Shown here in pieces: positions 24,110-42,304 of a stretch of 64,000 nt of DNA. Each line of letters begins with the position of its first letter. The stretch's first letter is position 1. The notes below the pieces were generated by a model that saw only the letters and a program-made list of their open reading frames with translations, searched no databases and was not told the DNA's origin. The translations under genes and the position numbers were made by a program. Source of the DNA: Opitutia bacterium (GTDB lineage Bacteria; Verrucomicrobiota; Verrucomicrobiia; Opitutales; Seribacteraceae); assembly GCA_002716045.1 (NCBI GenBank), contig PAZC01000034.1:1-64000 (forward strand), written 5' to 3'.

Positions 24110-26287
24110 TTAATAGACGTATCGGTAATAGACTTCGAGCATCAAAAGGCAGAGGGTTGTTCGGTAAACCTTTGCATCCTCTGATGCTCTGGACTTTGTG
24201 GTACCTGAACCCTCTTCCTTAAAACTCCCATCGGGATTTTGAGCCCGAATAAGCTGTGGTTGCATTTGTTCGTTCCACTTTGCCCAATAGCTTCCGCCTT
24301 TGTTAAAAAGAGCCTGGGTATCGTAATACCAAGAGTAGAGATTGGATTCTTTGCTGTCATAACGAAAACGCGAACTCTTCAAGATGTGCTGACAGGCTTT
24401 GTTAACGACAAGATTACGATCCTGTCCATCGTGTCCGAATTTCCACCCCTGCAAGCCCAGGGCCCCAACCCCGGTGAGCTTGTGTTTGGCATTCTTGGCA
24501 TCGGAGCGTTTGCGGTAGCCAAAACCACCGTTTGTTGGAGAGTAAACACGATAGAAATTTTTGATGGACTCGGTTAGCGACTCCTTGACCCCCGGGAATT
24601 CAGCTCCGGAATTATAAGCTGCCTTGAGAGCCTGAAATTGCCATCCACTGACGGACGTATCGCTACCTTCAGCATCATTGCGCTTGAAGTCCAACTCGGT
24701 TTTACCATTCGCTTTGCGTACGTTCTCCAAATAAAACCAACCGCCATCACTCTTTTGACCGTTTACAATGTGTGCAACGGACTTCGTCAGAACCGGTAGC
24801 ATCCATTCTTTTTCAGTCATGCTGAAAGCTTCGGCCAAACCATAGGTCGCAATTCCATGGGCATAGGCAGCTCCATGCCGATGATTGTTATGATAGAGCC
24901 ACCCATTTTGCTTGTCACCTTTTTCCACTAGCCATTTGGCGCCTCTGGAGACTGCGTCTCCATACTCGGAAGAGTCTGTTAATTCACAGTGTCCGAGAAA
25001 ACAAAGAAGGGCCAATCCAGTCATGGCTCCAATGTGCTTCTTCCCCCATGAACCGTCCTCATTCTGAGTGGCCTTCAGCCAATCCAAACCCTTGAGTACA
25101 GCAGTCTCTACACCCACGCCTCCGCCACCCTCGGCCAAGCGACTACGGCGACCGATCTTGTCACAACGGCCCGACATGGACTTAGGGACGGACACGCCCA
25201 TGGTATTCAATTTGGCAAGAGTTCGCTTTATCTCGGTGTCACGAGCTTCAGGCCTATCCAGTTCCTGTACTTCCTCTGCCTCAAACAAGGATTGGTCTAT
25301 GGAAAACTTATCTCGCCTGGGGGTGAGGACGAAACCTTCAGAAGCCAAATCAATATTCTCCTCACCAGATCCCTCTCGTTGAAAAACAGGGGCGCCGCTA
25401 TCCTCATCCAAGTTATCTCCGATCAAAGCTTGACCAGATTCGTCCTGCTCTTCCAGCGGTTTGGAAGCAACGTTGGTAATATCTCCTTCTCCTTGGGCCG
25501 CGCCAGCTAATTGATCGTTGATGAGCTGGTCTTCATGCAGCGCATTTTGATCGTTCTCATTTGATCCTCCCTTGCGAACGTCACCTGATTCACCTGTGCC
25601 AACGTCACCAAGCTTGGCTCGTTCGCCACCCGAAGCAATTTGTCGAGATTCGCTATCAGGGACATCATCCATGGCCACATCCGATTCATCGACAATCTCA
25701 ACTTGAAACTGTTCGGACTTGGCTTCCTGCACTCCGTCATCGACCACAACGTAATAAGTAACAACGTCACCTATCTCTAGTTTCATTTTGGAAAGCGGCA
25801 GCACGCAACTAAGTTGAGCTATCTTCTTTTTCGCAGCGGAATCGACGTCCATGGGTAGATTAGCTTCTTTGCCGTCCTTGGACACGACCAGTTTGGCATT
25901 TTCCACTCCATTGTCGTCCGTAACGTCCAACTTGATCATTAGCTCATGATAAGAGGGCTTCCTTACTTTTTCACTCGGGCTGGTAATAGTAACGGTAGGA
26001 GGCTCATCCTGAAACAGGGACATCGCCGCGGTGGCCAACCAACCAAAAAGAAATGCATAGCCGAGGATCACATTGCCCAAGGCCAAGCCTTTGCCTTTCT
26101 TTGTCTTTGATTTACGACCTGTGCGTTCTAGCAACGCAAGGTGAGCAGTGGTGAGATGACCGGAAAGAAGGCCAAATATAGCTGCTGTAAGGAGAAAGCC
26201 TCCTCCATCCTCAAGGGAAAAACCTGCAGCGAGAGCAGAACCTGTTGCACCGGCAAGTATAAGGGATGATAACAGCTTACCGGTCAT
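24110..26287 (-). CDS. Membrane protein with DUF4190-like anchor and alpha/alpha-toroid (prenyltransferase-repeat) domain
   Basis: I chose the ATG at 26287 (725 residues). A TTG at 26347 overlapping the upstream stop would add 20 residues encoded by a terminator-like hairpin. The N terminus has DUF4190-like helices (GHLTTAHLALLERTGRK, then LALGNVILGYAFLFGWL). An Ig-like domain follows (PPTVTITSPSEKV to VTYYVVVDDGVQEAKS), then an acidic linker. The last 330 residues form a toroid with squalene-cyclase/prenyltransferase-like motifs: QNEDGSWG, QKSDGGWFY, PTNGGFGYR and QNPDGSFKEEG. The acidic DxDD motif of class II cyclases is not evident, so a binding role is more likely than cyclisation. It is gene 10 of the 42.3-23.0 kb array. 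Confidence 0.82.
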   Translation of the reverse strand: MTGKLLSSLILAGATGSALAAGFSLEDGGGFLLTAAIFGLLSGHLTTAHLALLERTGRKSKTKKGKGLALGNVILGYAFLFGWLATAAMSLFQDEPPTVTITSPSEKVRKPSYHELMIKLDVTDDNGVENAKLVVSKDGKEANLPMDVDSAAKKKIAQLSCVLPLSKMKLEIGDVVTYYVVVDDGVQEAKSEQFQVEIVDESDVAMDDVPDSESRQIASGGERAKLGDVGTGESGDVRKGGSNENDQNALHEDQLINDQLAGAAQGEGDITNVASKPLEEQDESGQALIGDNLDEDSGAPVFQREGSGEENIDLASEGFVLTPRRDKFSIDQSLFEAEEVQELDRPEARDTEIKRTLAKLNTMGVSVPKSMSGRCDKIGRRSRLAEGGGGVGVETAVLKGLDWLKATQNEDGSWGKKHIGAMTGLALLCFLGHCELTDSSEYGDAVSRGAKWLVEKGDKQNGWLYHNNHRHGAAYAHGIATYGLAEAFSMTEKEWMLPVLTKSVAHIVNGQKSDGGWFYLENVRKANGKTELDFKRNDAEGSDTSVSGWQFQALKAAYNSGAEFPGVKESLTESIKNFYRVYSPTNGGFGYRKRSDAKNAKHKLTGVGALGLQGWKFGHDGQDRNLVVNKACQHILKSSRFRYDSKESNLYSWYYDTQALFNKGGSYWAKWNEQMQPQLIRAQNPDGSFKEEGSGTTKSRASEDAKVYRTTLCLLMLEVYYRYVY

Positions 26288-26329
26288 GAAAAAAAGGGAG
26301 GACCGGAAGGATGAGTTGCATCCTTCCGG
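26288..26329 (-). terminator. Rho-independent-type hairpin between two genes of the array
   Basis: On the minus strand CCGGAAGGATG pairs perfectly with CATCCTTCCGG (11-bp stem, 5-base loop; bases 26303-26329). A pyrimidine tract ending in seven T follows, right up to the ATG of the toroid gene at 26287. It has every mark of an intrinsic terminator and lies between the vWA gene and the toroid gene, so it may set unequal expression within the array. Confidence 0.75.
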
Positions 26330-26343
26330 CCCCAAACCCGTTA

Positions 26344-28776
26344 TCAATCGCTTTGCGTCTTGGGGTTGTAATTACCGTCTTCGAGACCTCCACCATATTT
26401 CTGGAGATCGACGCCGACTTTACGGGACGCTTCGAAAATCAGGTTCATGTAGTACTGCGGATCAGCATCGTCCTTAACGTGATAAACGTCGCTGAACACC
26501 ACGCCATCGTGGTTCTTGATGTGATGGCGATTTTCTTCCCAATAGTACTTCTTGAGGTTGGCTCCGGAGAGGTAGCCCTCGCCGCGCCAGGCATTGCCCA
26601 CGAATTCCTTGAAGGACTTGGCATGTGTCCGGCCGCGATCGACTTGGAACATCACTCCTCGATAGAGTCCGCCATAACCACCGAGACCACCTTTGAGAGA
26701 TTTGAGATCTTCAAGGTATTTCTCTTCTGGCTCCTTGTTGAAATTAGGCATGTGGTAGATGGGTTGTGCCTCATCTTGGAAAACAAACGCCAACACGTTG
26801 TCTTTCTTGGTTGCTTCCTTGAAGAACTGTAAAGTGCGCTCACCGTTTCCATCGACTACCACCACACGACGATTGTAGAGATTCTCGTCGTTCAAGTAGT
26901 AGGGAAGAAGAGCTTGCTTCATGATCGTGCCACGCATCTCCTCAAGGGATTTACGGGTTTCCAATATCGATCCACTGCCATCGACGTGCATCATGATCCA
27001 GAGATTGCCGTCGGGAGGAAGGTCATCGTAACGGCGCTCATCGAAATCGTGATCGCCACCGCGGCCACCATGCCCATGTCCACCCACGCCACAATCAGCG
27101 CAACCTTTATCTCCACAATCGGTGCAACCTATGCCGAGACCTAGAGGTTGCTTGACCATGCCAGACACAAGTCCGGCAGCTCCGCCTGTGCCGGCTCCGC
27201 TTACCAGACCACCAACGCCTCCAGCGGCGCCAGGGCCCATAGCCATGGCTGGTCCGCCGATGCCTGGGGCACCTGGATTGCTTTTTGCATCGGTTGGAAT
27301 GGTCATGGAGCTAAGCTCTTGACCATCGTTGAAACCATCGCCGTCACTATCGGCAACCTCAGGATTGGTGCCATAAGCTCTTTCCAAAGATGCAGAGAGT
27401 CCGTCGCCATCGACGTCGGGATCGCCGGTCGGGGCTGCATTTCCTGGCTTGCTGCGGGGATCATTCGGGTTACTAAGAGCCTTGACCTCGTCTGCATCCG
27501 AAAAACCATCTGAATCTGAATCGGACTTGGCTGGATCTGTACCATAGGCAGCTTCAAGAGCATCAGGGAGGGCATCGCCATCACCATCAGGTCCAGCAGG
27601 CGCCGCGTTAGCTGGCGGAGCATAAGTACCGGTGCCGCCGAGTGCGGGAACAGGCTTGCCGTCAAGGACAGCTTCTCCGATTCCAGCTCCAATTCCGGCA
27701 GCGCCGACTCCGGCACCAATGGCTGGTGTACCGATGCCAGCTCCAACACCCAGGCTAGGAGTTTCATAAGCGTATAGCTTGCCGCCTTTGTCGACGCCCA
27801 AGCCATCACCGGCTGCATTGGCGTCTTCGGCGAAATCACCTACGTCTGCTTTGAAATCAACGTTTTCGGCATCTTTACGACGATCGACGTCTAATCCACG
27901 GAAATTGCGATCGGCGCGATCGTCCACGTCATAGCGTTCTTCCACTACGCGTTCTTCTTCGAGGGCTCTATCCAAGGCTCCGAGATCAACCAAGGCTCCG
28001 TCATCATCACCGATGCCACCCCGGTCGCGTCCCACAACGTCGACACCTCCGTCAGCACCGCCACGATGGCCGCCGCCATGACCGACCAAGTCAGGTCCGC
28101 CTATACCGCCGATGCCACCGCCATGCACATTGTTTCCGAGATTACGGCCAACGATGCGATCATCCACAACATACCCCGGATTGTCGATCACCGCAACGTC
28201 GGGAGAGTCGTCGAGAATCACGCCGTTGCCTCGATCGATGCCAACACCAGAATCATGGGCGAAACGGTTATCCACGATATTTACATAGCGGGTTACGGTC
28301 TTGGTGTTCCCTTCGGAATCGGTTACCATGTAATCAATCGGGTAACTAATGCCGGGAACCAAGCTATTGATCTTGTCAGCCCCGCTGACAGTGACTTGAT
28401 CCGTGAGAAGAGTACCATCGGCCGCCTTGGCGGTGAAGCCAGGCTCGACGTAAGTTCCGCCCAAGGGAATCGTGACGCGATCTCCTTGAGCCAGTTCGAT
28501 GACGGGCTTGTCAGGATCAGCTATCTCGTTAGCGCCTGTAATTTCATCCGTATCGACGAAAAGGCCTTCCGGATCCTCAGCGGCAAGCTGTTCCTCCGAT
28601 GAGGCCTCAGGCTTGTTGATCGCAACAAGAGCAATGAACGCGGCAGCTAGCAAGTAGCCCCCCACGACATTCGCCATGGCGAAACGTTTATATTTAGAAT
28701 CAACGACGGGGGAGGTTTCTTCCTCCAAATCCTCAGTCGTCGAATCCATCTCCACTTCTTTTTTCTTTTCGGTCAT
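26344..28776 (-). CDS. Membrane-anchored protein with DUF5011-like, thrombospondin type 3 Ca repeats and vWA-like MIDAS domain
   Basis: The 810-residue protein has a cytoplasmic acidic N terminus and one membrane helix (residues about 34-53). An Ig-like DUF5011 domain covers about 90-168, with IPLGGTYVEPGFTAKAADG. A long Gly/Asp/Val-rich low-complexity region follows. Two Ca-binding thrombospondin type 3 stretches lie at about 398-490 (DGDGDALPDALEAAYGTDP and DVDGDGLSASLERAYGTNP). A CxxC-x4-CxxC knuckle is at Cys551, 554, 559 and 562, next to a His/Gly/Asp cluster. Finally there is a vWA-like domain whose MIDAS motif is Asp599-Gly-Ser-Gly-Ser603. The C-terminal part should bind a divalent metal and a partner outside the cytoplasm. 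The start overlaps the preceding small gene by 44 bases; ATG 28749 is an alternative start. Confidence 0.82.
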   Translation of the reverse strand: MTEKKKEVEMDSTTEDLEEETSPVVDSKYKRFAMANVVGGYLLAAAFIALVAINKPEASSEEQLAAEDPEGLFVDTDEITGANEIADPDKPVIELAQGDRVTIPLGGTYVEPGFTAKAADGTLLTDQVTVSGADKINSLVPGISYPIDYMVTDSEGNTKTVTRYVNIVDNRFAHDSGVGIDRGNGVILDDSPDVAVIDNPGYVVDDRIVGRNLGNNVHGGGIGGIGGPDLVGHGGGHRGGADGGVDVVGRDRGGIGDDDGALVDLGALDRALEEERVVEERYDVDDRADRNFRGLDVDRRKDAENVDFKADVGDFAEDANAAGDGLGVDKGGKLYAYETPSLGVGAGIGTPAIGAGVGAAGIGAGIGEAVLDGKPVPALGGTGTYAPPANAAPAGPDGDGDALPDALEAAYGTDPAKSDSDSDGFSDADEVKALSNPNDPRSKPGNAAPTGDPDVDGDGLSASLERAYGTNPEVADSDGDGFNDGQELSSMTIPTDAKSNPGAPGIGGPAMAMGPGAAGGVGGLVSGAGTGGAAGLVSGMVKQPLGLGIGCTDCGDKGCADCGVGGHGHGGRGGDHDFDERRYDDLPPDGNLWIMMHVDGSGSILETRKSLEEMRGTIMKQALLPYYLNDENLYNRRVVVVDGNGERTLQFFKEATKKDNVLAFVFQDEAQPIYHMPNFNKEPEEKYLEDLKSLKGGLGGYGGLYRGVMFQVDRGRTHAKSFKEFVGNAWRGEGYLSGANLKKYYWEENRHHIKNHDGVVFSDVYHVKDDADPQYYMNLIFEASRKVGVDLQKYGGGLEDGNYNPKTQSD

Positions 28777-29185: not shown

Positions 29186-30118
29186 TCAACCGCCCTTGTT
29201 TAGAATCGTGCCGCCGTCCGTACCAACACCAAATGGGACGGGCAAAGTGGTGATAGGCTTCCAATTGTAACCAATCTTGCGGAGCGAGGCCGCATCCCTC
29301 AGATTATTGAAGACGGTAAAGCTTTGGGAGTCCGCGAATACGATCATCTCAATGAAGAATTCCTTGCCAAATTGACGAGGGGCGTCCTGGAGGGCCTGAA
29401 GGAATGCATTAATGGCGTCCTTGTTTAATTCGGGATCCAAGCCCATTGCGGGATTAGGTTGGGCAATTTGCCGGTTTTTATCATCGGTACCCCAATTGAT
29501 GTGCGTGGAATCGAGATTCTGTCGACCTCGTTCGATGGTAGCGGTTGGATATATCTTACCATTGGCGAGAATGAGGTTAATTTTTTCGGCTTTGGTCGCG
29601 CTTTCGATAGGAAGACTAATTTTCCGATAAGGTATTTTGTCGAGAGCCTTGGCCAAATTGTCGTGCTCCAGCACTGTTTCAAGTCGCGCGATATCCTCAC
29701 TCACGGTCAGGGATTCCTCTTCCAAGCTCTCGATTTCCTCTCGAAGTTCAAGTTGCTCGAGTTCGTTGCGCTTGGCCAACAATTCAGCGGAAACACCTTC
29801 TTCCTGCAATTGCTTCAACAGCTCCGAGAGTTCGATCTTTTCGGTTTCGATTTCATCAACGACAACTTGTTTTTGTAGCTGGAGTTGCTGGAAATTAAGA
29901 ACCGTGGCATTGTGTTCGGCCACCAAGTCCAAGAATTCCTGCTCGAGCAACTCAGTGGAATTTTCGTCCAGTCGACGCATCTTGTCCTTGAGTTCGGCCC
30001 CCTTCTTCTCGACACTCAAGGCTAGTAGCAAGGCGATCAATATGATACCGCCAAAGGTGTTGCAGAGGGTGTCCAGCAACATGTCGAGGCTACCTGAATC
30101 GTCTTTTTCCCGGGCCAT
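29186..30118 (-). CDS. ExbD/MotB-like single-pass coiled-coil protein (second copy)
   Basis: The 310-residue protein has a short cytoplasmic N terminus and one membrane helix (residues about 12-34: LDMLLDTLCNTFGGIILIAL, then LLALSV). Asp residues at 12 and 16 mark the start of the helix, where ExbD/TolR/MotB carry the proton-accepting Asp. About 120 residues of coiled coil follow and then a globular extracytoplasmic domain (ISLPIESATKAEKINLILAN, FFIEMIVFADSQSFTVFNNL). No OmpA-type peptidoglycan-binding motif is visible. It lies 5 bases after its paralogue-like neighbour, and I infer that it pairs with the ExbB-like protein. Confidence 0.78.
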   Translation of the reverse strand: MAREKDDSGSLDMLLDTLCNTFGGIILIALLLALSVEKKGAELKDKMRRLDENSTELLEQEFLDLVAEHNATVLNFQQLQLQKQVVVDEIETEKIELSELLKQLQEEGVSAELLAKRNELEQLELREEIESLEEESLTVSEDIARLETVLEHDNLAKALDKIPYRKISLPIESATKAEKINLILANGKIYPTATIERGRQNLDSTHINWGTDDKNRQIAQPNPAMGLDPELNKDAINAFLQALQDAPRQFGKEFFIEMIVFADSQSFTVFNNLRDAASLRKIGYNWKPITTLPVPFGVGTDGGTILNKGG

Positions 30119-30123
30119 GGCAA

Positions 30124-31092
30124 TTAGTTCTGAGGAACACCCTCACGCTTCTTGTTTGAGAAAATAAGGGCAGCTTCCTCATGAATGGGTTCGTAACCGA
30201 ATTTGAATTTGAGGCTTTCGGCATAACCAATAGCGGTATCGAAGAGCTCGAGTTGGCCCATACCTCCGCCTCCGCTTTTGGGCACAGGCACCATCATTCG
30301 GCAAGCAGAAGGTTTGAAGAAGAAAACAAAGTAGTGGGTGCGAGGATCGTACCTACGGTATCCTCGCATGAGTTCACGAACAAAAGTATTTCGGTTGAAG
30401 GGCGTGGTGGTCTGCTCTTGATTGAACTCCCCAATGCTCAATTCATTGCCGCTTAGACCAACTAGAACAGGCTTCAATCTGGTATTGGTCTCCTCAGGTA
30501 TAACCCTGACGTCATTCTGAATCTGCTCCTTGAGCTGCTCAATGTCAGTCATCAACCTTTCAACGTAAGCGTCTTTCTCGTCCTCGTCCATAAAGGCCAT
30601 GGGATTTGAATCCATTTGGTCCATCAGGCCTTTTTTCTCATTCTCCAGTTCCGAAATATTATTTTTTGTGAAAGAAAGCTGATTGTTCAGTTCCTCCAGA
30701 GCCTGTTTGAATTTTTCAGCTAGAGGCGCATCCACTTCAGCCTCTATTTCCTGAATTTGTTTCTGAAGCAGGACGACAGCCAGTTGAGCGTCTTCTATCT
30801 GTTCGTCGATCTCCTCGATCTTCAAGAGGACAAAATGCTCAAATTCCTTGTTCTTCTTTTTCTGCGCGGCAATGAGCGCCTTGAAGTCCGTGCCGTTATT
30901 TTCTTCACTCAAATCAATTTCAACAGACGAAGGCGCCACGCTTTGGTTCCCCTCTTCGGGGGGTTTCTCCCGGATTTCGAGAGCAAGGATCAAGGTGATG
31001 AGAACAAGAATGCCGATAACAGCTGTTATTATGTCCTGAAAGGCGAAGAAACTAACGCCTCCTTCGTCCCCCTTTCTTCCGCCTCTTGCCAT
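30124..31092 (-). CDS. ExbD/MotB-like single-pass coiled-coil protein (first copy)
   Basis: The 322-residue protein starts with a Gly/Arg-rich cytoplasmic tip and one membrane helix (residues about 14-39: SFFAFQDIITAVIGILVLIT, then LILALEI). Asp20 lies in the position of the ExbD/MotB proton-binding residue. A long coiled coil (about 75-200) and a C-terminal globular domain (RTHYFVFFFKPSACRMMVPV) follow. It does not share obvious sequence with the second ExbD-like protein outside the general plan, so the motor would have two different stator rods. It starts 31 bases after the ExbB-like gene. Confidence 0.8.
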   Translation of the reverse strand: MARGGRKGDEGGVSFFAFQDIITAVIGILVLITLILALEIREKPPEEGNQSVAPSSVEIDLSEENNGTDFKALIAAQKKKNKEFEHFVLLKIEEIDEQIEDAQLAVVLLQKQIQEIEAEVDAPLAEKFKQALEELNNQLSFTKNNISELENEKKGLMDQMDSNPMAFMDEDEKDAYVERLMTDIEQLKEQIQNDVRVIPEETNTRLKPVLVGLSGNELSIGEFNQEQTTTPFNRNTFVRELMRGYRRYDPRTHYFVFFFKPSACRMMVPVPKSGGGGMGQLELFDTAIGYAESLKFKFGYEPIHEEAALIFSNKKREGVPQN

Positions 31093-31123: not shown

Positions 31124-32050
31124 TTAGCGACCACCTCGCTCACGACCTCCGCCTCCTTTCTCTAGGCGCAACTTCGAAAGGACGTATGATTGGCAATATT
31201 CATTGCATTCGTCCAGGATCAGGAATTCCTGTCTCTTACGAAACGTAACGAACATTTGCACGGCAATCGAGCCAACCAATCCAAGTAAGGTGGTATCGAA
31301 AGCAGTGGCCAAGCCACCGGTAACGTCCTTGAGCGAATCCTTCAATTTGGCCATGTCTTCGGCCAACTGAATGGTCTGGCCAAACTCCCCAATGGCTTGG
31401 CCGAGACCGAGCACAGTACCAATAAACCCAAGGACCGGAATGGCCCAAAGGAAACCGTTTAGCAAATTATAACTGGAAGATATTTGGTCCTCGTCCATGG
31501 TTGCCTGAGCATTCACAATGCTGGAAACATCGCTAATTTGGCCAATGTTCTGCAAATTGGAGAGTGCCACCTCGATACGATTGAGGAGCAGGAAATGGGA
31601 AGTATCATCAACAGAACCGCGGATTCTGAGAAGAGCTTCGCGGGCTGTTGCAGTGTTGAGGAAGAAATTTGGATCCTGAGGAACCAAATTCAAGGCAAGG
31701 GCTTTGCGTTGGAATTTCGCCTTGCGTCCCTTCACAAATAATATCGTGCAAGACCAGAAGAACAAGAGCATGATGCCAGCGGCCATGACGTAACCTCCGA
31801 TACCCCGATCAATGAACTTGCTGGAGAACTGAACCATGAAGGAATCGGCGTCTCCCATGCGCGGTGCGGTTGAATCACCGATGATAAACTCGAGCATCAG
31901 AAAGAAGATCGTAGCCATTATGAGCCCCACCAAGAAGGTGAAGAAAGCGTTGGTGTCGGTGTAACGCCCACCAGTAAATCCGATCTTTTGCTCAAAGTCC
32001 TGGGTGGACCAACTCAATTCCGGTTCGTCGAAGCCTACGTCATCTGCCAC
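31124..32050 (-). CDS. MotA/TolQ/ExbB-type proton channel protein
   Basis: The 308-residue protein has an N-terminal helix (residues about 35-57), a second helix near 85-105, then a cytoplasmic segment. The MotA_ExbB core follows, with helices LLNGFLWAIPVLGFIGTVLG (about 200-225) and TAFDTTLLGLVGSIAVQMFV (about 250-272). The GxxGTVxG and Thr/Ser pattern lining the pore is kept. The C terminus is Gly/Arg-rich. The family forms pentamers around ExbD-type dimers and turns proton flow into mechanical work. The two ExbD-like genes follow directly, and a GTPase with membrane partners lies upstream in the same array. Confidence 0.88.
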   Translation of the reverse strand: MADDVGFDEPELSWSTQDFEQKIGFTGGRYTDTNAFFTFLVGLIMATIFFLMLEFIIGDSTAPRMGDADSFMVQFSSKFIDRGIGGYVMAAGIMLLFFWSCTILFVKGRKAKFQRKALALNLVPQDPNFFLNTATAREALLRIRGSVDDTSHFLLLNRIEVALSNLQNIGQISDVSSIVNAQATMDEDQISSSYNLLNGFLWAIPVLGFIGTVLGLGQAIGEFGQTIQLAEDMAKLKDSLKDVTGGLATAFDTTLLGLVGSIAVQMFVTFRKRQEFLILDECNEYCQSYVLSKLRLEKGGGGRERGGR

Positions 32051-32099: not shown

Positions 32100-33221
32100 T
32101 CATGCGTCGTCACCGTCTGAGTCATCCTCATCCGCAAAGTCATCTTCCATCGAAGCGATACTCTGCCTAACAATAGTACCGGTAATCATATCATGGAGCG
32201 CTTGGCGGCGACGGGAAGTAAAAATCATGAAAAAGCCCACCACCCCGATGATCTTGGCAAATGCCCGACCAGTTGCGCGGCCAAAACCAATACGTCGATT
32301 GGTTTCCTCGAGGCATACCTGAGCCTTTACCATGCGTTTGCCCAGAGTAGCCATTCCCGCGGAAGATTCCGTCAGACTGGAATAAAGCCAGCCCACGATA
32401 ACGGCAATGACCATAGGGACAGCAAATAGCTGCCACCTCTCGATGTCCTTGCCGGGATTGGTCATGGTGTGCAGCCAGAAAACAAGTCCAACGACTGCAG
32501 AGGAAGCAGCTGCAATCAACAGAACGTCAATGAACAAGGCAAGGGCTCGGGCACCCAAACCGGCGATGCCCTTGCGTTCATCCTCGAGAGCCGAATCATC
32601 GTCGTCATCGTCATCTTCACCTCCAAAGACAGGTTCCTGACGGGCAACTTGCGGAGGAGCTTCCGTAGCCACAGGAGCTTGGGGAGGACCAGCAGGGGCT
32701 GGTGGCGGCTTGGGTGGCGGAGGCGCGGCGGCATGCAAGGTCTTGACGCCCTCACCCACCCCAGGCACAGAGGACAGAGGTAGCCACTCGGTTACACCAT
32801 CATACCACACCAGATCGGAAAAACGCAGATTACCTGACTTCAAGTAATCCTTCACCTCGTTTAAAAGATAAGGCCCAAAGCGTTGGCCTTCCCGGGAAAT
32901 ATGAATTTCATCCGTGGGACCAGGTTCGGGAGGAGGAGTGTCAGCGGGCGGCTCGGGTGGAGGAGGCTCCTCGAACTCTTCGGGTTCCTCTGGTTCCTCC
33001 TCCTCGACGGGAGCCTCTGGCTTGCCTAAGTTTTGTTCGGGCAACCCTCCGGTCTCGTATGTATCAATGAAAGTCGCCACGGTCATTTCCTGATCATCAA
33101 CCTTCACTTTGTGAATGGTGCTCAATTCCTTCATGCGAAGCAAATCGATGATCTCCCGGGCAGTAAAGGAACCAGCCGGTTGGCCTCGCTTGGAAACAAC
33201 GTATTTATCTTCGAAACTCAC
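32100..33221 (-). CDS. Two GYF_2 domains plus RDD membrane domain
   Basis: Residues about 6-55 (YVVSKRGQPAGSFTAREIID) and about 105-160 (ISREGQRFGPYLLNEVKDYL, with WYDGVTEWLPLSS) are GYF_2-like domains, which usually bind proline-rich peptides. A Pro/Glu-rich linker separates them and a second one (PPPPKPPPAPAGPPQAP) leads to an acidic DDDDDDD patch. The C-terminal 150 residues are an RDD domain with GLGARALALFIDVLLIAA, GMATLGKRMVKAQV and RRQALHDMITGTIV. It probably works as a cytoplasmic adaptor fixed in the membrane. It sits between the 1227-residue protein and the ExbB-like gene. Confidence 0.88.
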   Translation of the reverse strand: MSFEDKYVVSKRGQPAGSFTAREIIDLLRMKELSTIHKVKVDDQEMTVATFIDTYETGGLPEQNLGKPEAPVEEEEPEEPEEFEEPPPPEPPADTPPPEPGPTDEIHISREGQRFGPYLLNEVKDYLKSGNLRFSDLVWYDGVTEWLPLSSVPGVGEGVKTLHAAAPPPPKPPPAPAGPPQAPVATEAPPQVARQEPVFGGEDDDDDDDSALEDERKGIAGLGARALALFIDVLLIAAASSAVVGLVFWLHTMTNPGKDIERWQLFAVPMVIAVIVGWLYSSLTESSAGMATLGKRMVKAQVCLEETNRRIGFGRATGRAFAKIIGVVGFFMIFTSRRRQALHDMITGTIVRQSIASMEDDFADEDDSDGDDA

Positions 33222-33227
33222 AACTAC

Positions 33228-36200
33228 TCAATCGGAATACCGAAAGGGAACAAGATTCTTCAAACTTCCAAATCTGTTTGCACTACTTGCTCCCGACTCT
33301 AAAAGAGCCTTCTTAAAGACAGCCTCCAAATCCTTGTCAACCGTCAACAGAGGACTGAACAGAAGCGCATTGGAGCCTACGTAGCGCTCAAGAGAAAGCT
33401 TTCCTTCCTCACGACTGACGCACCAAACGAAGGCTGGCGGTTTGCCGGAATCCAAGTAGCGAGGGTTGCCGCGTTCGTCAACATAACCCGCAAATGGAAA
33501 ATTGACCCCTGTCAGGCCTCGTAAAAAACTGAGGTTAAACTTAACCTCGCTGCCATAGCGGCGTTGACCCAAAGGACGATAGAAAGTGGTTAGTTGCGCT
33601 TGCATGGCTTGATAGGAAGTGGGGCTCATCCAATCCGTAACCTTCAGGGGCAACTGCATGATGGCCTTGAGTTGCTCATGATCTTTTTTCAAGTAAGGCG
33701 AAAGCCGCACGCCCCATTCGTCTGCCCGCATCGACATGATCTCAAAAAGTTTGTCGTGCATATAAGCCTTGAACAAAGGGGAAATCTGTGGATCCAGCAA
33801 AAGGGCATCAAGCAAGTCCAACAAAGGTTTAAGGACCTTGCGGTTTTCACTATTGAGTCGCCTTTCGATTTGCTCCTGCACAAATTTCGATTCGGGAGTC
33901 AACTGCGGTTCCTCGAGCATCGGTCCTTTGATAGCACCACCCCAGTGAGTGGATTCAAACAGACGCCCTTCGCGTTTTCCCCCTATAAGGAAGTTACCCT
34001 GCTGCATAACCTTTGCCACGGGATTATCCACCGGCTTTCCGGTCTCATCAAATTTCTCCTCGATCTTTTCTTGCTGGATTTGTCCAAAGGACAGGAGAAA
34101 CTGGAGCAAGTCTTTCTTGGTATTATATTTTGGTTGGCCACCAGTGCCTATGCCCGCTGACACGGGGGTACAGTTGTTAAGCTTGTATCGCCAAACGTCA
34201 CGGATACCAGAGGCGCTCACGATAACGGAAAGGTCCTCGTATTCTCGCTGTGAGTCATCTGGCAGCACACCCAGCTCTCCAGTCTTGATCTTACCCCAAA
34301 CCTCTTCCGGCCCAATGAAGATGAGCTTGCGATGAAGTTGCCCCCGATCGTTGGAGAAAATGTTACGGTTGGTGGTAATCTCCTGAAGCGCTTGTAACGC
34401 GATGCCATCGTAAGCCTTGACCTGACGGGCACGATCCATGGCCGCGAGATAGCTCTCGAGATCGGTAGCCTCACTCAATTCACCACGAGCTTGGGTGCCC
34501 TGCCCCATCTTGGCCAAAATCTTGCCCTGCATCTCGACGAGCTTGTTGATGCGTCTCTCTTGGACGAAGGAGGGTTTGAACGCTTCCTCCTGATTACCTC
34601 GAAAAGAAACCAACTTCTTTATGGTTTCGCCCAAAGTGGAAAGATCGCCTTTGGGATTTTGGGAACGACCAGCGTCAAGAGAGTCTGCAATTTCTTCGGC
34701 TTGTACTAAAAGTTCCTCAATTTTTTTTTTGGAAGATTCTCTCACCAAGTGCCTGTAGGTATTCCAAAGAGTTCGAACTTCCCTCAATTGCTTGGAAACC
34801 TCCAGTTGTTCCGTGGCCTGCAACTTGTTCTTAAGCTTTTCATAGCGAGCCCCGAGTTCTTCGATGAAAGTTCCTTGATTAAGGACGAAATTGTCAATTT
34901 CCGCTTCTGATTTGAACTTTTGAGCGGCAGCGACAATGCGACTCTTTAGTTTGGCAAGTTCTCCCGTAAGATCGTCGTATTCATCTGCAGCAATGGCCGA
35001 ATTCTCCTGAATGGACCTAATCTTGCCGTCAATTTCATCCAAAAGGGACGAGACCTCTGGAGAAGAAGCATAGAGATGAAAAGGAAACTCGGCAGTAAGC
35101 TGAACTTCCTGCTCCATGAGAGGTTGCCATTGAAGCAATTTGGGCTGTTGGTTGAGATCCTTCAATTCAGTCAAAACTGCAATTAAACCATCAATGTCCT
35201 GCTTGCGTTCTTTGGAAAAGCTGAGGTGAGCGCGCGTGACTTCGGAGCGAAGATCTCGATCGACATCTTTCATGGCTTCTTCATAGGCCGGCAGGAGAGC
35301 ATCAACTCGCTTGCGCAAGACCTTTCTCAATTTGATTCCTTTCGCGATGTCCTCGTCTCGAAAGCGTTGAACGAAATCCCACATTGCATTAAGATTCGGG
35401 GGATTTGTTGCTAACATCCCCTCACAAAGTTTGATTACTACGTCGGTGCGACCACGCTTCATGGTAGGTTCATCCGCGAAGGAAAGCGTCGTACCTTCAG
35501 TGGCCACAAGAAAGTCTTCCTGTTTGCCGGCAGTGTCCAAGGCGCAAGCGTTAACGAATGTCTTTTCCACAACCGAAGCCAAGCCTTTTTGGAGTTCTTC
35601 GTCTTTGCTCTCCATGTACTTTTTTTGCACCTCATCTTGACCAAAAGATTGAAGGAAAGCCCACTGCTTGAATGGATCCTGAAGATTTTCAGCGGCTACA
35701 ACTGAATCGAGCAAATCGGATCGTTCCTGCCTGAAGTTAAACCAGATCAGGAAGGCCACCACGGCCGCAACAGTCAGAACGACTGTGCCAATCCAAATCC
35801 TCTTGGTGCGTCCTCTCTGTTTGGCAATGCGGTTTTTGACCCATCCAACGCCTTTCTGCAGGTCCATGAGCACTTCGGGAGGCACGTCGGAACGTCCCAT
35901 GTCCTCGAATTCCTTCCTGAAAGTATTTATTTCAGCTTGGAACTCGAGATAGTTTTCGATTGAAAGCCCGCCAGCGTTCTCGGCTTGCTTCATCTCAGTG
36001 ATACGGTTCTTGAAACGAGAAACCAACGCCTGCAAGGCACGGGCGTCGCGATCTTCCTCCATGCGCTCTTCGGCCCACTCCCTGAACTCGTTATAGGCAT
36101 TGATATCGTCTGCAGCGTGCTCGCTCTCCAAATCGTATTCCTGACTGAGCTCGTAAAATTCTCCAATAAGAGACAGGGCTTCTTTCCATTCCTCGGCATC

Positions 36201-36911
36201 ACGGAGTTGGCCCAAGTCGACAAGAATTTGCTCGCACCTCAACTTGGAATCCGCCCGTCGATAGGTTTGGCGAACAGCGAGCGCATTTTCCCAAAGAGTT
36301 GCCTTAGTGGATTTTTCCGGCGGAATCACCCAGTCGGTCGATTCCACCTCGTCCATAATGTCCAGAAGTTCGTCTTTGCGCCCCTCCCGGATGAGCAAGT
36401 CCAAATGGTCAAGGCGCTGCTCCAGTATCTTTACACTGAGTTGACCAAAGTGTCGCTTGGCCGCCTCATGATCTGGATTCATGCGGAGAATCGTCTTGAG
36501 AATCTTAAATGTTCGCTGCTCGTCTCGACTACGCATGGCGGTGCGATATTCTCGAAAAACCGGATGGTCTTCACTGATCTTCTCCCCATAAAGACCTTCG
36601 AGCATATCAACGTGGTCATCGGTGAAATTGGGTCCCAGATAGATACTCTTCTCTTCGCACAGCTCCTTCCATTTGGCATCGCCACCAAAAGAGAGTCGCT
36701 CCATCAAATCCAAGACGTTTGGCGATTCCTCGGCCAACTCCAAGGCCGTGTACTTGTTGCCACTTCGAATCAGGGCAACGCATTGATCCAATCGCTGGTC
36801 GATGATCGTACGATAACGAGCATACTCTTTCGCAAGAGAATGGATAACAGGATCGGTAGCGCCTTCACGGAGCACCTTTTCTATGCGGTCTACAAGTCTG
36901 TCTATATTCAC
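33228..36911 (-). CDS. Large helical/coiled-coil single-pass membrane protein
   Basis: The 1227-residue protein has a cytoplasmic, TPR-like all-helical region of 360 residues, one membrane helix at about 371-391 (RIWIGTVVLTVAAVVAFLIW) behind a basic stop (KQRGRTK), and more than 800 extracytoplasmic residues. Residues about 390-850 are rich in heptads. The last 300 residues look globular, with beta segments (YGSEVKFNLSFLRGLTGVNF, PAFVWCVSREEGKLSLERYV). I do not recognise a named family. The topology is the same as that of the GAP1-like neighbour, and the two genes are separated by 8 bases. I infer a structural rod that spans from cytoplasm to periplasm. Confidence 0.78.
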   Translation of the reverse strand: MNIDRLVDRIEKVLREGATDPVIHSLAKEYARYRTIIDQRLDQCVALIRSGNKYTALELAEESPNVLDLMERLSFGGDAKWKELCEEKSIYLGPNFTDDHVDMLEGLYGEKISEDHPVFREYRTAMRSRDEQRTFKILKTILRMNPDHEAAKRHFGQLSVKILEQRLDHLDLLIREGRKDELLDIMDEVESTDWVIPPEKSTKATLWENALAVRQTYRRADSKLRCEQILVDLGQLRDAEEWKEALSLIGEFYELSQEYDLESEHAADDINAYNEFREWAEERMEEDRDARALQALVSRFKNRITEMKQAENAGGLSIENYLEFQAEINTFRKEFEDMGRSDVPPEVLMDLQKGVGWVKNRIAKQRGRTKRIWIGTVVLTVAAVVAFLIWFNFRQERSDLLDSVVAAENLQDPFKQWAFLQSFGQDEVQKKYMESKDEELQKGLASVVEKTFVNACALDTAGKQEDFLVATEGTTLSFADEPTMKRGRTDVVIKLCEGMLATNPPNLNAMWDFVQRFRDEDIAKGIKLRKVLRKRVDALLPAYEEAMKDVDRDLRSEVTRAHLSFSKERKQDIDGLIAVLTELKDLNQQPKLLQWQPLMEQEVQLTAEFPFHLYASSPEVSSLLDEIDGKIRSIQENSAIAADEYDDLTGELAKLKSRIVAAAQKFKSEAEIDNFVLNQGTFIEELGARYEKLKNKLQATEQLEVSKQLREVRTLWNTYRHLVRESSKKKIEELLVQAEEIADSLDAGRSQNPKGDLSTLGETIKKLVSFRGNQEEAFKPSFVQERRINKLVEMQGKILAKMGQGTQARGELSEATDLESYLAAMDRARQVKAYDGIALQALQEITTNRNIFSNDRGQLHRKLIFIGPEEVWGKIKTGELGVLPDDSQREYEDLSVIVSASGIRDVWRYKLNNCTPVSAGIGTGGQPKYNTKKDLLQFLLSFGQIQQEKIEEKFDETGKPVDNPVAKVMQQGNFLIGGKREGRLFESTHWGGAIKGPMLEEPQLTPESKFVQEQIERRLNSENRKVLKPLLDLLDALLLDPQISPLFKAYMHDKLFEIMSMRADEWGVRLSPYLKKDHEQLKAIMQLPLKVTDWMSPTSYQAMQAQLTTFYRPLGQRRYGSEVKFNLSFLRGLTGVNFPFAGYVDERGNPRYLDSGKPPAFVWCVSREEGKLSLERYVGSNALLFSPLLTVDKDLEAVFKKALLESGASSANRFGSLKNLVPFRYSD

Positions 36912-36919
36912 GGCAATTA

Positions 36920-39900
36920 TTACTTGAAGTGGATCAATTCAGCCTCGGGTTGAAGCTGACCTTGGCGAAAGAGACGCAATGACCATTCCTCGGAATGAAA
37001 ATATGAGTTCATTAACCGCAGTTTGCGGGCAGGCTCATATTCTTGGGGCACAAGACGAGGATCTTTCTTGCTGATCTCGGTTTGGAGCAAGGCAAACCAT
37101 TGCTTGAGTGGACCCAGTTGACGAGTGGTAGTGCCTCGATCAAAAAGGTGTTCCTTGTACATTTTGACGAGATCGGGATTCTCGATGCAGGTAATTCCTT
37201 TGCGAAGCTCTGCCGAGGTAAGCTCGGCGGGAGCATGGACTTCGGCGAAATCCTGCAAATAACGGTTCCACTCCTGCGTGTACCTAGGGGTTGCAACGCG
37301 GGCCTCGGGCGTTGCCTTGTGCGCGATCAATTGATCATAGAGTTTCTTTACGGCGCCGGTATTCGGTTCGATAATTTCCCTGACCACGGCGAAGATCATG
37401 GTCCCAATGCCTTGGTCATTCACTCCGAAAGCTCTCTCCGCCTCGCGCAAAAAACGCAAAGTGCCGATGACTCTATCGATATCCCGTGAGAGGTTCTTGG
37501 GATCGTAACCCAAACCAAAAGGCCTGAAAGCCTCCTCTTTGGCTCGCATCGCAACTTTACGCCAAAATTCCTGATACTCCAAATCGTTGAGGTAAAACTT
37601 CCTGGGATCCAAGGTTAAATCACTCCTCAACTTATCCAGGGCGGCAGGAGAGTAACCGTGGATCTTGCGGAAAAAATCCAATACAGCGTCTATCACGTGG
37701 GGACCAAAGCTACCCACGCCAGATCCAGCCTTGTAATTGCCTTTGGATGAGCCTGCTCGAGACCCGAACTGCTCCAAGGCTTGGTAAATTTTAGGCAAGG
37801 GCATCTTGGCGGCCTGTTCGCCAGTGGTTTTTTGATTCAAACTAGAAATCTGCTCCTGAAACTTTTTTCGTAAATCCGTCATGTAATCGATGAACAAAGC
37901 AAGTTCGCAGGTCAAGGAATCCTCGGCAACCGGCTTTACCAAGAGGTTTGGAAAATCGAGTAACCTGCGATTCGTAAAATCTTTCGGAGAAAGGCTCGCT
38001 CCGTAAAAAACTCTGGCACTTGGATTGACGGACAATTTCAACAAGCGCGGCCCAGTCGAACCAACCACTCGCAAACCGTGCCCAAAAGCACCTTTCTTGG
38101 CTAAGCTGACCCGATTGCCAGTCATTGCGAGATAGGCTTTGGGCAATTCGTTAGGCTTGTTGCCAACGACCCGTGGGGAAAGCAAATAAAGATCAATGGA
38201 TCGATTGGTTTGAGGATCGGGCAAACGCAAGACAACACCTCGGGAAGCCGCGTTTCGGGCTCGCTGATTCTCAAAAATAACGCTCACTTCGCTAGACGAC
38301 TTGAAAAGAAACCTAAGAAATAAAGTAGATCCTTCTTCCTGGGGAGTCTCCAAAGAATATCGCTCAATGCCAAGAAGCTCTTTCACCCGGGCATCGTAAA
38401 TGGCAACATACCGTTGGGCTCCTTCCATCAGGGGGGTATCAACAAGAGCCTGCGCCCCAGCATAATCAGTTTCCCAAACGAAAGCAGTCTTCGAATCTGC
38501 GATCCGAGACAAGGCGGTCTTCAACGTTTGGACAAAGGCTGCATCACCTTGGGCAGAAACAGATTCGAGTTGGGGATCCTCAACTTCGCCCTTGGTTAGC
38601 CACAAGACATGGCTGCCAACAACCGGAAAGGGGGGAGGCGCCGTGGTCAAAACAGGGGTGGGAGTGGGGGGAGCAATAACCGCAGCTTCGACAGAGAAAT
38701 CAAATTCGCGGACATGGCCTTGGTCTTCGTTCCAAATGAATGTCACCTTACGGCCAGCAGCCAAATACTCTCTCAACTCTTCAAATCTAGCACGCCGTTC
38801 CGGAGGAAACACATACTTCAATTGAACACCTTGAGGGGAAACGAAACTAAGCATGAAATTGTCCTCGACGACATCAATGTCACTGGCTGCAAACTCAAGT
38901 TTTCTCGAGAGCGGAGTGCTTGGCAAACGGGGCGGATTATTGGGCGCGGTTGAGTCCGTTCCATCAGTCCCAGCAAGAGCTAGAGTCGAAGGAGCTGCCA
39001 AGGACTCAAGAAGAAAAGTTCCTGGCTGCTTTCCATTGCGAAAAGTCACAGCCATTTCCTGGCCAACCTTCAAGTCTCTTAGTCTATCGCCGAATCGATC
39101 ATAGTCATCGTTGCTCATGGCGGAAACGTCGATTCGAGCGGGAGGAGACTCCCCAACCGTGAATTCAATCCAAGTATTTAAACGTTCATCCTTCGCCGTA
39201 ACTTTAGCCAAAGAAGCTACTCCTGCTTGAACAAATTCTGCCGTACCATTCGGATTATTCGCCTCTGGGTCGGCGTCCAGGTCACCGCCATTATCCTTAG
39301 CTTTCCCACTATTCTCGGCAATGGGATTAGGATCCACTGGATCATCTTTCAATACATCCAAGACGCCAGACTTAAGCACGATGAAAACAGCCAAAAGCAT
39401 AACGGCAGCCAAAGCCGAAATCCAAGGCCATTTGGCTGGTTTCTTCTTTTTCCTGCCAGCCTCTCCTCCACTTTGTGCGGTAGCGGTGGATTGGGCCGCA
39501 GCATGAGAAGCGGCGGCTTGGCGAAATTGCTCCTTTTCGGTCCGTGAAAATCCTCCAGATCCACTTCTGCCTTCGCTGATACGAGTTGATTCACCAAACT
39601 CTCCAGCAGAAGAGCCTGCCTCAGCCGCTTCACCCACAGGGGGCGGTGGAGGAGTTTTCTTGATTGCTGCCTTACGCCCATTGCGGGCAACGAAAACCTG
39701 CTTCTCATCCATGGGGTCCCGGACAGCACTCTGCTCAAAGGCCGTAAAATCCAAATGGTTGGGAACTCCATTTTGCTTCAAGCGAAGGGATGCAGGTTGC
39801 CCACAACCACCTATCCAAGCGTAATCTTTCGCATTATCAGTTTCCTGAAGATAGGTGGTAAATGCAAACTGCCAAGCGTCCATTGGCATCGCAACAAGAG

Positions 39901-40477
39901 CCGAAGATTCGGCAAATAAATGAAGTAAGTTACCTTCTTGGCCAGGATGATTTTCGAGCAAGATTGGGTGCTTCGCCTTTTCAGCGACCAGATAGGCAGC
40001 ATTACCGCCATCGCCAGTGATGGCTTGCCAGTTTTGGGCTGGAGACAATCCAGACATCTTGCAGGCAGATACGTCGGTAATCTCATCGTCCTCAATCCAT
40101 CGGGAAGAACCTTCCCAAAAATCCAGCCAACCGTTCCATTGGAGGAAAATTTCAGGAGGGCTAGGACTTACCGCTATCTCCAAGCCATCGAAGATCAAAT
40201 GGTGAGCAATGTAATTCGTCCGGTTGGTGTAATCGAGGCCTGCGTCACGAATGCGAGTCAGGACGTAAAATTCTTCGGTTCCTAATTCGAATCGACGAAA
40301 ACTGTTGATCTCTGCCTTGGTGGCACCTTCGCCAAGATTGAAGTCATATACACTAAGCCTCTCCAGCTCCCGAACTAACCGGCTTCGCAAACTCCTGTGG
40401 CGAGCTACCGTACAAAAACCAGTACGCCCGGGCTCAAGCCCTTGGGGGGTACTGGTGAAGATCATTTGGCGAGCCAT
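36920..40477 (-). CDS. GAP1-like (GTPase-associated protein 1) single-pass membrane protein
   Basis: The first 240 residues resemble the GAP1 N-terminal domain type found next to prokaryotic conflict-system GTPases: IFTSTPQGLEPGRTGFCTVA, TNYIAHHLIFDG and WQFAFTTYLQ. A Pro- and Gly-rich linker (about 270-345) leads to one membrane helix at about 350-370 (WPWISALAAVMLLAVFIVL). About 800 extracytoplasmic residues follow, including two similar stretches around FEFTV/DVSAMSNDDYDRFGDRL and VEDNFMLSFVSPQGVQLKYV. Classical GAP1 proteins are soluble, so membrane anchoring is unusual. It is 33 bases after the GTPase gene. Family assignment is from memory of the motifs and would need a profile search. 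Confidence 0.75.
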   Translation of the reverse strand: MARQMIFTSTPQGLEPGRTGFCTVARHRSLRSRLVRELERLSVYDFNLGEGATKAEINSFRRFELGTEEFYVLTRIRDAGLDYTNRTNYIAHHLIFDGLEIAVSPSPPEIFLQWNGWLDFWEGSSRWIEDDEITDVSACKMSGLSPAQNWQAITGDGGNAAYLVAEKAKHPILLENHPGQEGNLLHLFAESSALVAMPMDAWQFAFTTYLQETDNAKDYAWIGGCGQPASLRLKQNGVPNHLDFTAFEQSAVRDPMDEKQVFVARNGRKAAIKKTPPPPPVGEAAEAGSSAGEFGESTRISEGRSGSGGFSRTEKEQFRQAAASHAAAQSTATAQSGGEAGRKKKKPAKWPWISALAAVMLLAVFIVLKSGVLDVLKDDPVDPNPIAENSGKAKDNGGDLDADPEANNPNGTAEFVQAGVASLAKVTAKDERLNTWIEFTVGESPPARIDVSAMSNDDYDRFGDRLRDLKVGQEMAVTFRNGKQPGTFLLESLAAPSTLALAGTDGTDSTAPNNPPRLPSTPLSRKLEFAASDIDVVEDNFMLSFVSPQGVQLKYVFPPERRARFEELREYLAAGRKVTFIWNEDQGHVREFDFSVEAAVIAPPTPTPVLTTAPPPFPVVGSHVLWLTKGEVEDPQLESVSAQGDAAFVQTLKTALSRIADSKTAFVWETDYAGAQALVDTPLMEGAQRYVAIYDARVKELLGIERYSLETPQEEGSTLFLRFLFKSSSEVSVIFENQRARNAASRGVVLRLPDPQTNRSIDLYLLSPRVVGNKPNELPKAYLAMTGNRVSLAKKGAFGHGLRVVGSTGPRLLKLSVNPSARVFYGASLSPKDFTNRRLLDFPNLLVKPVAEDSLTCELALFIDYMTDLRKKFQEQISSLNQKTTGEQAAKMPLPKIYQALEQFGSRAGSSKGNYKAGSGVGSFGPHVIDAVLDFFRKIHGYSPAALDKLRSDLTLDPRKFYLNDLEYQEFWRKVAMRAKEEAFRPFGLGYDPKNLSRDIDRVIGTLRFLREAERAFGVNDQGIGTMIFAVVREIIEPNTGAVKKLYDQLIAHKATPEARVATPRYTQEWNRYLQDFAEVHAPAELTSAELRKGITCIENPDLVKMYKEHLFDRGTTTRQLGPLKQWFALLQTEISKKDPRLVPQEYEPARKLRLMNSYFHSEEWSLRLFRQGQLQPEAELIHFK

Positions 40478-40510
40478 AACAAATTAAAGACGCGCGGTGG
40501 ATGTGTTTTA

Positions 40511-42304
40511 TTAGGCTACTGGTACGAGATCGGGAACAATTTCCGAGAGTACCCAGATCGTCGGAACCTCAATCATTATGGGATCGATCTTATCTGGATC
40601 CGGGGCAATGAATTCCTGTTCGCCGTTCTTAAAAGTGCGAGGGCTATGACCAAAAGCGCTAACGGGGAAAAATTTCACGTTCTTCGACAAAGCTTCGGAG
40701 TTAGCTACCAAGGAAGGATGCATATCTGTTAGCCAATCGCGTAAAATGCTAGAGTTACTGTCAACGACATCAATATCCAAACGCTTGTCCACTATAGGGT
40801 TACGGATCATATCCCAATCAATCCCTTCGGCTTCAGCCAAGATATCGCATTTCCCAATCATCACAGCCATGGGAGCATCGATCTTGTCCGAAATAGCGAT
40901 ATTCTGATTCTGCTTCACGCGAATCTCCAACTCCGCCATGATGACATCTTGCTGGTCAAGGCGCTTGCCGCTGGGATCCAGAGCAAACTGCGGGTCATCA
41001 TGACCACGTAGCACACGTCGAAATTCGGGGCTGGCAATAGGGTCGAAAAGGAAAAAGATTCCGGATGAACTCGCCACGTGCAACGCTCCAGGCGATTCCT
41101 CGTTGGCAATGCCGGGCTCGAAATGCTCTCCCGCGTTGTCATAGAAAATCAGCGAACAATCATGGCCGCTTCCTCGAGGGTCTGACATGCTGAAAACAAA
41201 AGGTTTGGGCAATGCCACGATTTTCCCATGGCGTGGGAAACGTTCGTACATCTCCCCTTCCAACTGGGTTTTGATAAGCATCGCCGACTCAACTGCAGCC
41301 GCCGAAAATAGCCTATTCTTCATGGCATTCAAAATAGCGTTGCAGGTAGGATCGGCATCACGAAAGGCTACCCCGAACTCACGAAACAACGAGCGTTGCA
41401 GCTCTCGGACCAAGACACTCAAGTAATATGATTTACCGGCGCTCGGCGCACCCACTATAGAGAAAATGTGATGTGGCACGTCCATGAAACCCGGGGGTAA
41501 TTTCCGATGGCAATGCGGACAAGCGCCATCAGTCGTTGGCAACCCCATAGGATCCAATGCTTGTCCCTTTGAATTGAACTCGGTGGGAACGAAACGCAAC
41601 ATGGCGTCGTCACCCAATTTGGGATCGCCACGCAAATCATCGTGCAAGGCAATGCTCAAGACATCGGGACGGTCAAATTTCAGCCAACAGATAGGGCAAG
41701 TAAACTCACCTCGATCGGGGTCAACGACAACGGGCGCCTGATACTCCTGCTCGATATCTTCCTCAGTTTCCTCCTCAGGCGGAGACAAGGCATCAATCAA
41801 AGAAACCACCCAAAAAGCAACGTCAAGCCCCACTGGCTTGATGGCGCAATCCTCGAAGCTTGCACCCATTTCTCGGATCAAGTCCGGGATTCCGTAAAGA
41901 TTGGTTTGTCCCAAGGAACCACCCGATCGACCATTAACCACTTCCCAGCGATCCCTGGTAATTTGTTCGGCCCATGCCTTGGGATCCTTACCGACGAAAA
42001 CACACAATGGGGTGCTGGCAAACTGCAGCGTACAAACCTGATCCTCTTCCACCGTAAAAGGCTCGGTAACGGGACCACCATTTATAAGAAGCAAGGAATC
42101 GTTTTTCTTGTTCGCAACCAATCGAAAGTTGGAACCCGACTTCTTGATCATGCAGGCACCTTCCCAATCCGGCGCATCCTCGGGAGGAGGAACCTTCCAG
42201 TCACTGTTGCCCAAGCAACCAGCGATAAAAGGAAATTTCTCCAAGGTTCGGTATTCCCCGGTCAGACAGTGGTATATTCCGATTTGGTTTTTCTTGAGAA
42301 TCAC
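40511..42304 (-). CDS. Zinc-ribbon TRAFAC-like (double-GTPase family type) GTPase
   Basis: The gene starts with GTG at 42304 and encodes 597 residues. The N-terminal 120 residues are beta-rich and FHA-like (SLLLINGGPVTEPFTVEEDQ). A zinc ribbon with Cys203/206 and Cys262/265 (CPICWLKF, CPHCHRKL) comes next. The G domain has a Walker A GAPSAGKS at 285-292, a switch II-like FYDNAGEHF with Asp389, a G4-like IGKCD at 483-487 and a G5-like SAFG. No membrane helix is seen. Such GTPases with zinc ribbons sit beside GAP1 proteins in predicted counter-invader systems. It is the first gene of the array and I infer that it is the cytoplasmic switch. Confidence 0.82.
   Translation of the reverse strand: MILKKNQIGIYHCLTGEYRTLEKFPFIAGCLGNSDWKVPPPEDAPDWEGACMIKKSGSNFRLVANKKNDSLLLINGGPVTEPFTVEEDQVCTLQFASTPLCVFVGKDPKAWAEQITRDRWEVVNGRSGGSLGQTNLYGIPDLIREMGASFEDCAIKPVGLDVAFWVVSLIDALSPPEEETEEDIEQEYQAPVVVDPDRGEFTCPICWLKFDRPDVLSIALHDDLRGDPKLGDDAMLRFVPTEFNSKGQALDPMGLPTTDGACPHCHRKLPPGFMDVPHHIFSIVGAPSAGKSYYLSVLVRELQRSLFREFGVAFRDADPTCNAILNAMKNRLFSAAAVESAMLIKTQLEGEMYERFPRHGKIVALPKPFVFSMSDPRGSGHDCSLIFYDNAGEHFEPGIANEESPGALHVASSSGIFFLFDPIASPEFRRVLRGHDDPQFALDPSGKRLDQQDVIMAELEIRVKQNQNIAISDKIDAPMAVMIGKCDILAEAEGIDWDMIRNPIVDKRLDIDVVDSNSSILRDWLTDMHPSLVANSEALSKNVKFFPVSAFGHSPRTFKNGEQEFIAPDPDKIDPIMIEVPTIWVLSEIVPDLVPVA

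Follow-up and report, generated by a model that had tools for sequence, protein, structure and literature searches.

Systems in which the gene of a DO-GTPase is followed by that of a GAP1-N2 protein have been classed as conflict systems, and the paper describing them already reports GAP1-N2 proteins fused to membrane segments (Kaur et al. 2020, PMC7159879). A second described group, the putative force transducers of the Planctomycetes–Verrucomicrobia–Chlamydiae (PVC) bacteria, combines one TolQ-like gene with two TolR-like genes that differ from each other, a downstream gene for a membrane-tethered vWA protein and an upstream TPR-type gene (Molecular Biology and Evolution 2025, PMC12204202). 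The AglRQS motor of Myxococcus gliding likewise pairs a single TolQ subunit with two that are TolR-like (PMC3169522, PMC9389320), and in Zorya 5:2 motors serve defence (PMC11890865). Here we describe a seven-gene operon on the minus strand of the first 64,000 nucleotides of contig PAZC01000034.1 of an Opitutia bacterium (assembly GCA_002716045.1); this whole stretch is called the window below. The operon encodes a GTPase, a GAP1-N2 protein (GAP1), a protein named COIL, a GYF protein, a MotA-type subunit and two MotB-like subunits (MotB1 and MotB2). The window seems to join the PVC TolQ–TolR–TolR′–vWA module to the GTPase system of 2020. We consider it rather probable that the GTPase and GAP1 form a switch controlling a proton-motive-force-driven envelope machine that this one operon encodes.

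The seven genes share one orientation and are separated by gaps of 5–49 bp. The order GTPase–GAP1–COIL–GYF–MotA–MotB1–MotB2 is kept in the window's family, and loci across Verrucomicrobiota have the same set of genes. For the examination of linkage, loci chosen by their member of the close MotA subfamily were screened by a six-frame profile search, not by calls of open reading frames (ORFs). COIL, MotB1 and MotB2 were found in all 18 fetched loci, together with GAP1 and the GTPase save at loci cut off by the end of a stretch or contig (L158, L159). The genes stay together even in divergent or reordered operons (L084, L093, L165, L166). The same association was seen in 289 sampled Verrucomicrobiota genomes, scored at >200 bits for the MotA subfamily and >70 bits for COIL. 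The MotA subfamily was present in 23 genomes, each of which also had COIL (23/23), and in 0 of the 247 genomes without COIL; COIL itself was present in about 42. The Fisher p value of 7e-23 for this association carries no correction for kinship and overstates the independence of the genomes, which are related.

The operon is also part of a larger block that is either present or absent. In nine relatives with an empty site, the aldehyde dehydrogenase gene (window 42610–44190) abuts the homologue of window 23025–24101. At occupied sites the whole block, including homologues of 26344–28776 and 24110–26347, lies between those flanks, and in genus g3 additional genes stand between the dehydrogenase and the GTPase. 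The block is either there or missing as a whole, at a single place in the chromosome; gain and loss both fit the data.

The first gene encodes a DO-GTPase2-like GTPase of 597 aa (40511..42304, minus) with an N-terminal region that appears FHA/GYF-like by eye, two CxxC pairs (a putative zinc ribbon) and a P-loop G domain. The P-loop reads GAPSAGKS, the motifs DNAGE and GKCD are present as well, and the alignment of homologues shows invariant motifs. The match to Pfam DO-GTPase2 (E 2.3e-5, 24.6 bits) lies 2.4 bits under the curated cut-off of 27, and all 10 aligned homologues match this model at E <= 0.01. A scan of named genomes revealed relatives across Opitutales, Verrucomicrobiales, Puniceicoccales and Chthoniobacter-type genomes. 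Neither the GTPase nor the GAP1 profile gave a meaningful match against PDB sequences.

The GAP1 gene (36920..40477, minus; 1185 aa) starts 33 bp after the end of the GTPase ORF. A sequence-only reading of positions 36920–42304, that is, of the GAP1 and GTPase genes together, had placed it directly behind its GTPase and had described a GAP1-like N-terminal domain, a proline-rich linker, a single membrane helix near residues 350–370 and a periplasmic part of about 800 residues. This anatomy is borne out by Pfam, hydropathy, AlphaFold2 and the count of helices in homologues. Residues 1–122 (40112..40477, minus) match GAP1-N2 (PF20013) with 69.8 bits against a cut-off of 24 (E 3e-19), and so do all 40 aligned homologues. 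The GAP1-M model reached 15.1 bits in the window protein, under its cut-off of 24, and matched 5 of the 40 homologues. The AlphaFold2 model (mean pLDDT 81) has a folded N-terminal region to about residue 271, then a disordered Pro-rich linker, a helix at 352–369 and a second disordered linker. By the Kyte-Doolittle scale, the protein has a single strong hydrophobic helix (355–373, mean 2.48), and both methods together place the membrane helix at about residues 352–373 (39359..39424, minus). Among 87 homologous GAP1 ORFs that are complete, 81 have the helix, so it is no chance hydrophobic stretch. Because basic residues (KKKKPAK) stand just before it and acidic residues just after, GAP1 should, by the positive-inside rule, be oriented N-in/C-out, with some 812 C-terminal residues (about 374–1185; 36923..39358, minus) outside the cytoplasm. 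Beyond the second linker, the model folds this region into two small domains rich in beta structure, one mixed domain and one long helical one. For the ectodomain, Foldseek found no confident match to a PDB fold. The second-ranked Foldseek hit of the GAP1 model was TagF of the type VI secretion system (9t0n; probability 0.96, E 0.07, target TM-score 0.20). The order of secondary structure and this weak match offer a lead, namely that GAP1-N may be longin-like.

The sequence-only reading had further held that GAP1 domains are known mainly from soluble proteins, which the report of 2020 contradicts: the window agrees with the systems described there in the GTPase gene followed by GAP1-N2, in the C-terminal transmembrane segment on GAP1 and in the occurrence in verrucomicrobia. 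The membrane-anchored GAP1 layout is thus already described in outline, and the apparently new part is the gene set of a GTPase switch together with a probable motor. Of the proposed transmembrane signalling device, a signalling role is plausible, but the proposal was framed on GAP1 alone, whereas the conserved unit consists of the GTPase, GAP1, COIL, the GYF protein, MotA and the two MotB-like subunits. The GAP1 ectodomain is a variable add-on and not the core of the device, because in one relative family (f48) GAP1 is without the helix while COIL keeps its own. In this family GAP1 has about 307–340 residues and usually no membrane helix.

Taken by itself, the anatomy of GAP1 would fit a receptor working from outside to inside, its ectodomain sensing a ligand and switching the GTPase, with the neighbouring genes unrelated. 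Orphan genes for GAP1 with a membrane helix do occur without these neighbours (L038, L040). We regard such a lone receptor as very unlikely, given the conserved linkage with COIL and the motor in one present/absent block and the missing GAP1 helix in several f48 loci. The L038 gene (G000:C49:565-2718) encodes a second GAP1-N2 protein with a membrane helix, of about 717–727 aa, and there is no GTPase among the neighbours shown.

COIL (33228..36911, minus) has, according to profile, hydropathy and model, a cytoplasmic domain that is conserved and helical (TPR-like), a single membrane helix (372–390) and a large ectodomain. It belongs to no known family or fold. One membrane helix is found in 75 of 80 COIL ORFs, and COIL is the most constant membrane-spanning part of the gene set. 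The AlphaFold2 model of the Brevifollis homologue is confident (pLDDT 87.7) and largely helical; its Foldseek comparison with the PDB gave nothing below E 1e-3. A kinship between GAP1 and COIL was considered and rejected, as profile comparison showed no relation. L183 (G000:C39, 9192 onward) holds an orphan gene whose 288-aa product is homologous to the cytoplasmic domain of COIL, with a GYF-domain gene about 5 kb further on. In L109, L111, L117 and other Opitutales loci, GTPase–GAP1–COIL stands without a motor, and that of L109 lies beside what appears from its sequence to be a pair of an extracytoplasmic function (ECF) sigma factor and its anti-sigma factor.

The slot between COIL and MotA varies across loci and holds GYF with RDD, a PrsW protease or trypsin. 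In the window it is occupied by a protein with GYF_2 domain(s) and an RDD membrane domain (32100..33221, minus; Pfam and alignment). This gene fits the GYF gene with a transmembrane segment or trypsin that PMC7159879 reports for some planctomycete systems. The FNIII-repeat component named there had no fn3 counterpart among the scanned operon proteins. The main text of that paper mentions neither MotA, ExbB or TolQ nor protons, and no description of COIL was found in it. In the searchable literature we found no description of a GTPase/GAP1 switch paired with a probable ion-driven motor.

The channel subunit MotA (31124..32050, minus) is of the MotA/TolQ/ExbB type (MotA_ExbB, E 1.4e-9, 38.2 bits, cut-off 22.9), and all 31 homologues match the same model. 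Thr212 and Thr254 are invariant in these homologues. By reading of the motifs, they would correspond to the channel threonines of ExbB/TolQ, and by analogy with those proteins we infer that they face the pore. MotB1 (30124..31092, minus) is a one-helix, MotB/TolR-like subunit with the motif SFFAFQDIIT and a near-invariant Asp20; its paralogue MotB2 (29186..30118, minus) carries the motif SLDMLLDTLCNTFGG and a near-invariant Asp16, as seen in alignments and profiles. The paralogy is indicated by hhalign (99.3%, E 1.5e-20). One helix was found in 40 of 42 MotB1 and 34 of 34 MotB2 homologues, and the aspartate at its start is at least 90% conserved in each. Comparison of the MotA and MotB1 profiles with PDB sequences gave no meaningful match. 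In the window's own genome, a stand-alone trio (L171, G000:C20, 9599-14194) consists of MotA and two MotB-like genes, accompanied by a gene for a one-helix protein. It is related to the operon's trio and has no GTPase, which provides an informal contrast.

Two further genes travel with the block. The one next after MotB2 (26344..28776, minus) encodes a membrane-anchored protein with an Ig-like domain, TSP3 repeats and, at its C-terminus, a vWA-like metal ion-dependent adhesion site (MIDAS) motif, DGSGS; it has no Pfam VWA match. At the same position in L161, L162, L164 and L197, the membrane-anchored protein has a Pfam vWA domain. The window resembles the PVC force transducers in its one TolQ-like gene and two different TolR-like genes, in the downstream membrane-tethered protein, here with a vWA-like motif, and in the TPR-type gene upstream. 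It differs in that PMC12204202 mentions no GTPase, nor was GAP1 found there, and in that the His/SHLS motif given there was not seen in the window protein, whose helix contains no His. The last gene of the block (24110..26347, minus; start codon uncertain) encodes a membrane-anchored squalene-cyclase-like toroid protein, as judged from Pfam and the comparison of sites. The flanking gene at 23025–24101 has proline-rich C-terminal repeats (NPENPFDQ..PAPEDPFGAGAPPSN).

The subunit composition also recalls Myxococcus Agl-Glt (PMC3169522), in which a GTPase and one-helix proteins spanning the periplasm accompany one TolQ subunit and two TolR-like ones. Accordingly, the operon might encode a gliding, adhesion or surface-transport machine; adhesins at the surface would be moved or held in place by the TolQ-like and two TolR-like subunits, the GTPase, GYF and the large proteins of the periplasm. 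The AglRQS-like makeup and the partial similarity of the block's Ig/TSP3/vWA-like protein to CglD (53 bits, E 1e-14, cut-off 400) point this way, and we hold it to be possible, though doubtful. The GTPase is not MglA-like but of another family, no Glt homologue exceeded its cut-off, and the GltJ match (16.2 bits, cut-off 450), like that of CglD, reflects shared domains, as judged from the sequences.

The inner and outer parts of the machine differ in their divergence. Within the family, the mean pairwise identity is 68% for the N-terminal part of GAP1, 76% for the cytoplasmic part of COIL and 82% for MotA, as against 28% for the GAP1 ectodomain and 41–48% for that of COIL. With high identities in the cytoplasm and low ones in the ectodomains, the switch and the motor seem to be constant while the outer parts change fast. 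Such divergence would also suit a membrane-associated anti-phage or conflict system, in which the variable ectodomains of GAP1 and COIL sense the attacker at the envelope and trigger the GTPase switch, with the motor or the variable GYF-linked protein acting as effector in the manner of ZorAB in Zorya. The classification in PMC7159879 as conflict systems, the swapping of RDD, PrsW protease and trypsin in the slot after COIL, the presence or absence of the block at one site and the 5:2 motor of Zorya all speak for this. We nevertheless find it unlikely, since neither a nuclease nor any other toxic domain was seen, the fixed site lies between metabolic genes and not in a defence island, and no close GTPase is found on plasmids and none on phages. 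PADLOC gave weak matches only, mainly to ZorA, whose models scored 11–16 bits against cut-offs of 100–700; ZorB, ZorC, ZorD and ZorE had no match among the scanned operon proteins. Thus, the likeness to ZorAB (PMC11890865) consists of the MotA/MotB-type motor and a weak ZorA profile similarity, whereas there is no long ZorA tail, no OmpA-like domain was found in MotB1 or MotB2, and no ZorC, ZorD or ZorE was seen in the operon.

A mobile-element origin of the block was rejected: nothing on phages matched, and the matches on two Rhodococcus plasmids had an identity of just about 25%. No long repeats marking mobility were found at the block ends. The Rfam scan gave no match, and the promoter and terminator scans gave signals near chance level.

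The GTPase-controlled envelope machine that we favour would work as follows. The nucleotide switch would be formed on the cytoplasmic side by the GTPase together with the GAP1-N2 domain. Both GAP1 and COIL would have a single pass through the inner membrane and extend deep into the periplasm. MotA and the two Asp-bearing MotB subunits would form an ion-driven motor of the TolQR/MotAB type in the same membrane, and the downstream membrane-anchored vWA-type protein is a candidate force transducer. The switch would set when the motor engages the periplasmic parts, resulting in mechanical work on the envelope or on a surface-bound object. The domain content, the conserved membrane helices, the linkage and the joint presence or absence of the genes are observed; complex formation, ion flow, the direction of signalling, motor activity and the output, be it surface force or defence, are what we infer. 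The closest working analogues would be Agl-Glt, the Tol/Ton force transducers and, for defence, Zorya.

Three observations weigh against this scheme. Neither Pfam (MotB2 homologues scanned) nor hhalign gave an ExbD match for MotB1 and MotB2, so that the label MotB/TolR-like rests on topology, the aspartate and the pairing with MotA, and an assignment to the ExbD/TolR family is unsupported by profiles. When GTPase-anchored loci were counted that have GAP1 and COIL and extend at least 8.5 kb downstream, 24 of the 41 had the motor and 17 lacked it; therefore, the motor is not obligatory. Finally, the distance correlations (r 0.82–0.95) may merely mirror the shared phylogeny of the organisms.

In four f48 loci (L184, L186, L187, L195), COIL is followed by a PilM-like gene and, further on, by weak PilO/T2SSM similarity, with no motor. 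GTPase–GAP1–COIL could, as a tentative proposal, be a reusable GTP-controlled core of the inner membrane able to work with more than one energy module. In many lineages this would be a proton-driven motor of the TolQR type whose two B subunits are distinct, and in these four loci a platform resembling PilM/PilO. If so, envelope force machines gated by a GTPase and hypervariable in their outer parts would form a class of their own. So far, the GAP1/DO-GTPase systems have counted as conflict systems whose output is not known, and the PVC TolQ–TolR–TolR′–vWA modules as motors whose controller is not known. Should the two be parts of one machine, as the linkage here suggests, each would account for part of the other, and control of ion-driven envelope motors by a GTPase would reach beyond Myxococcus gliding.

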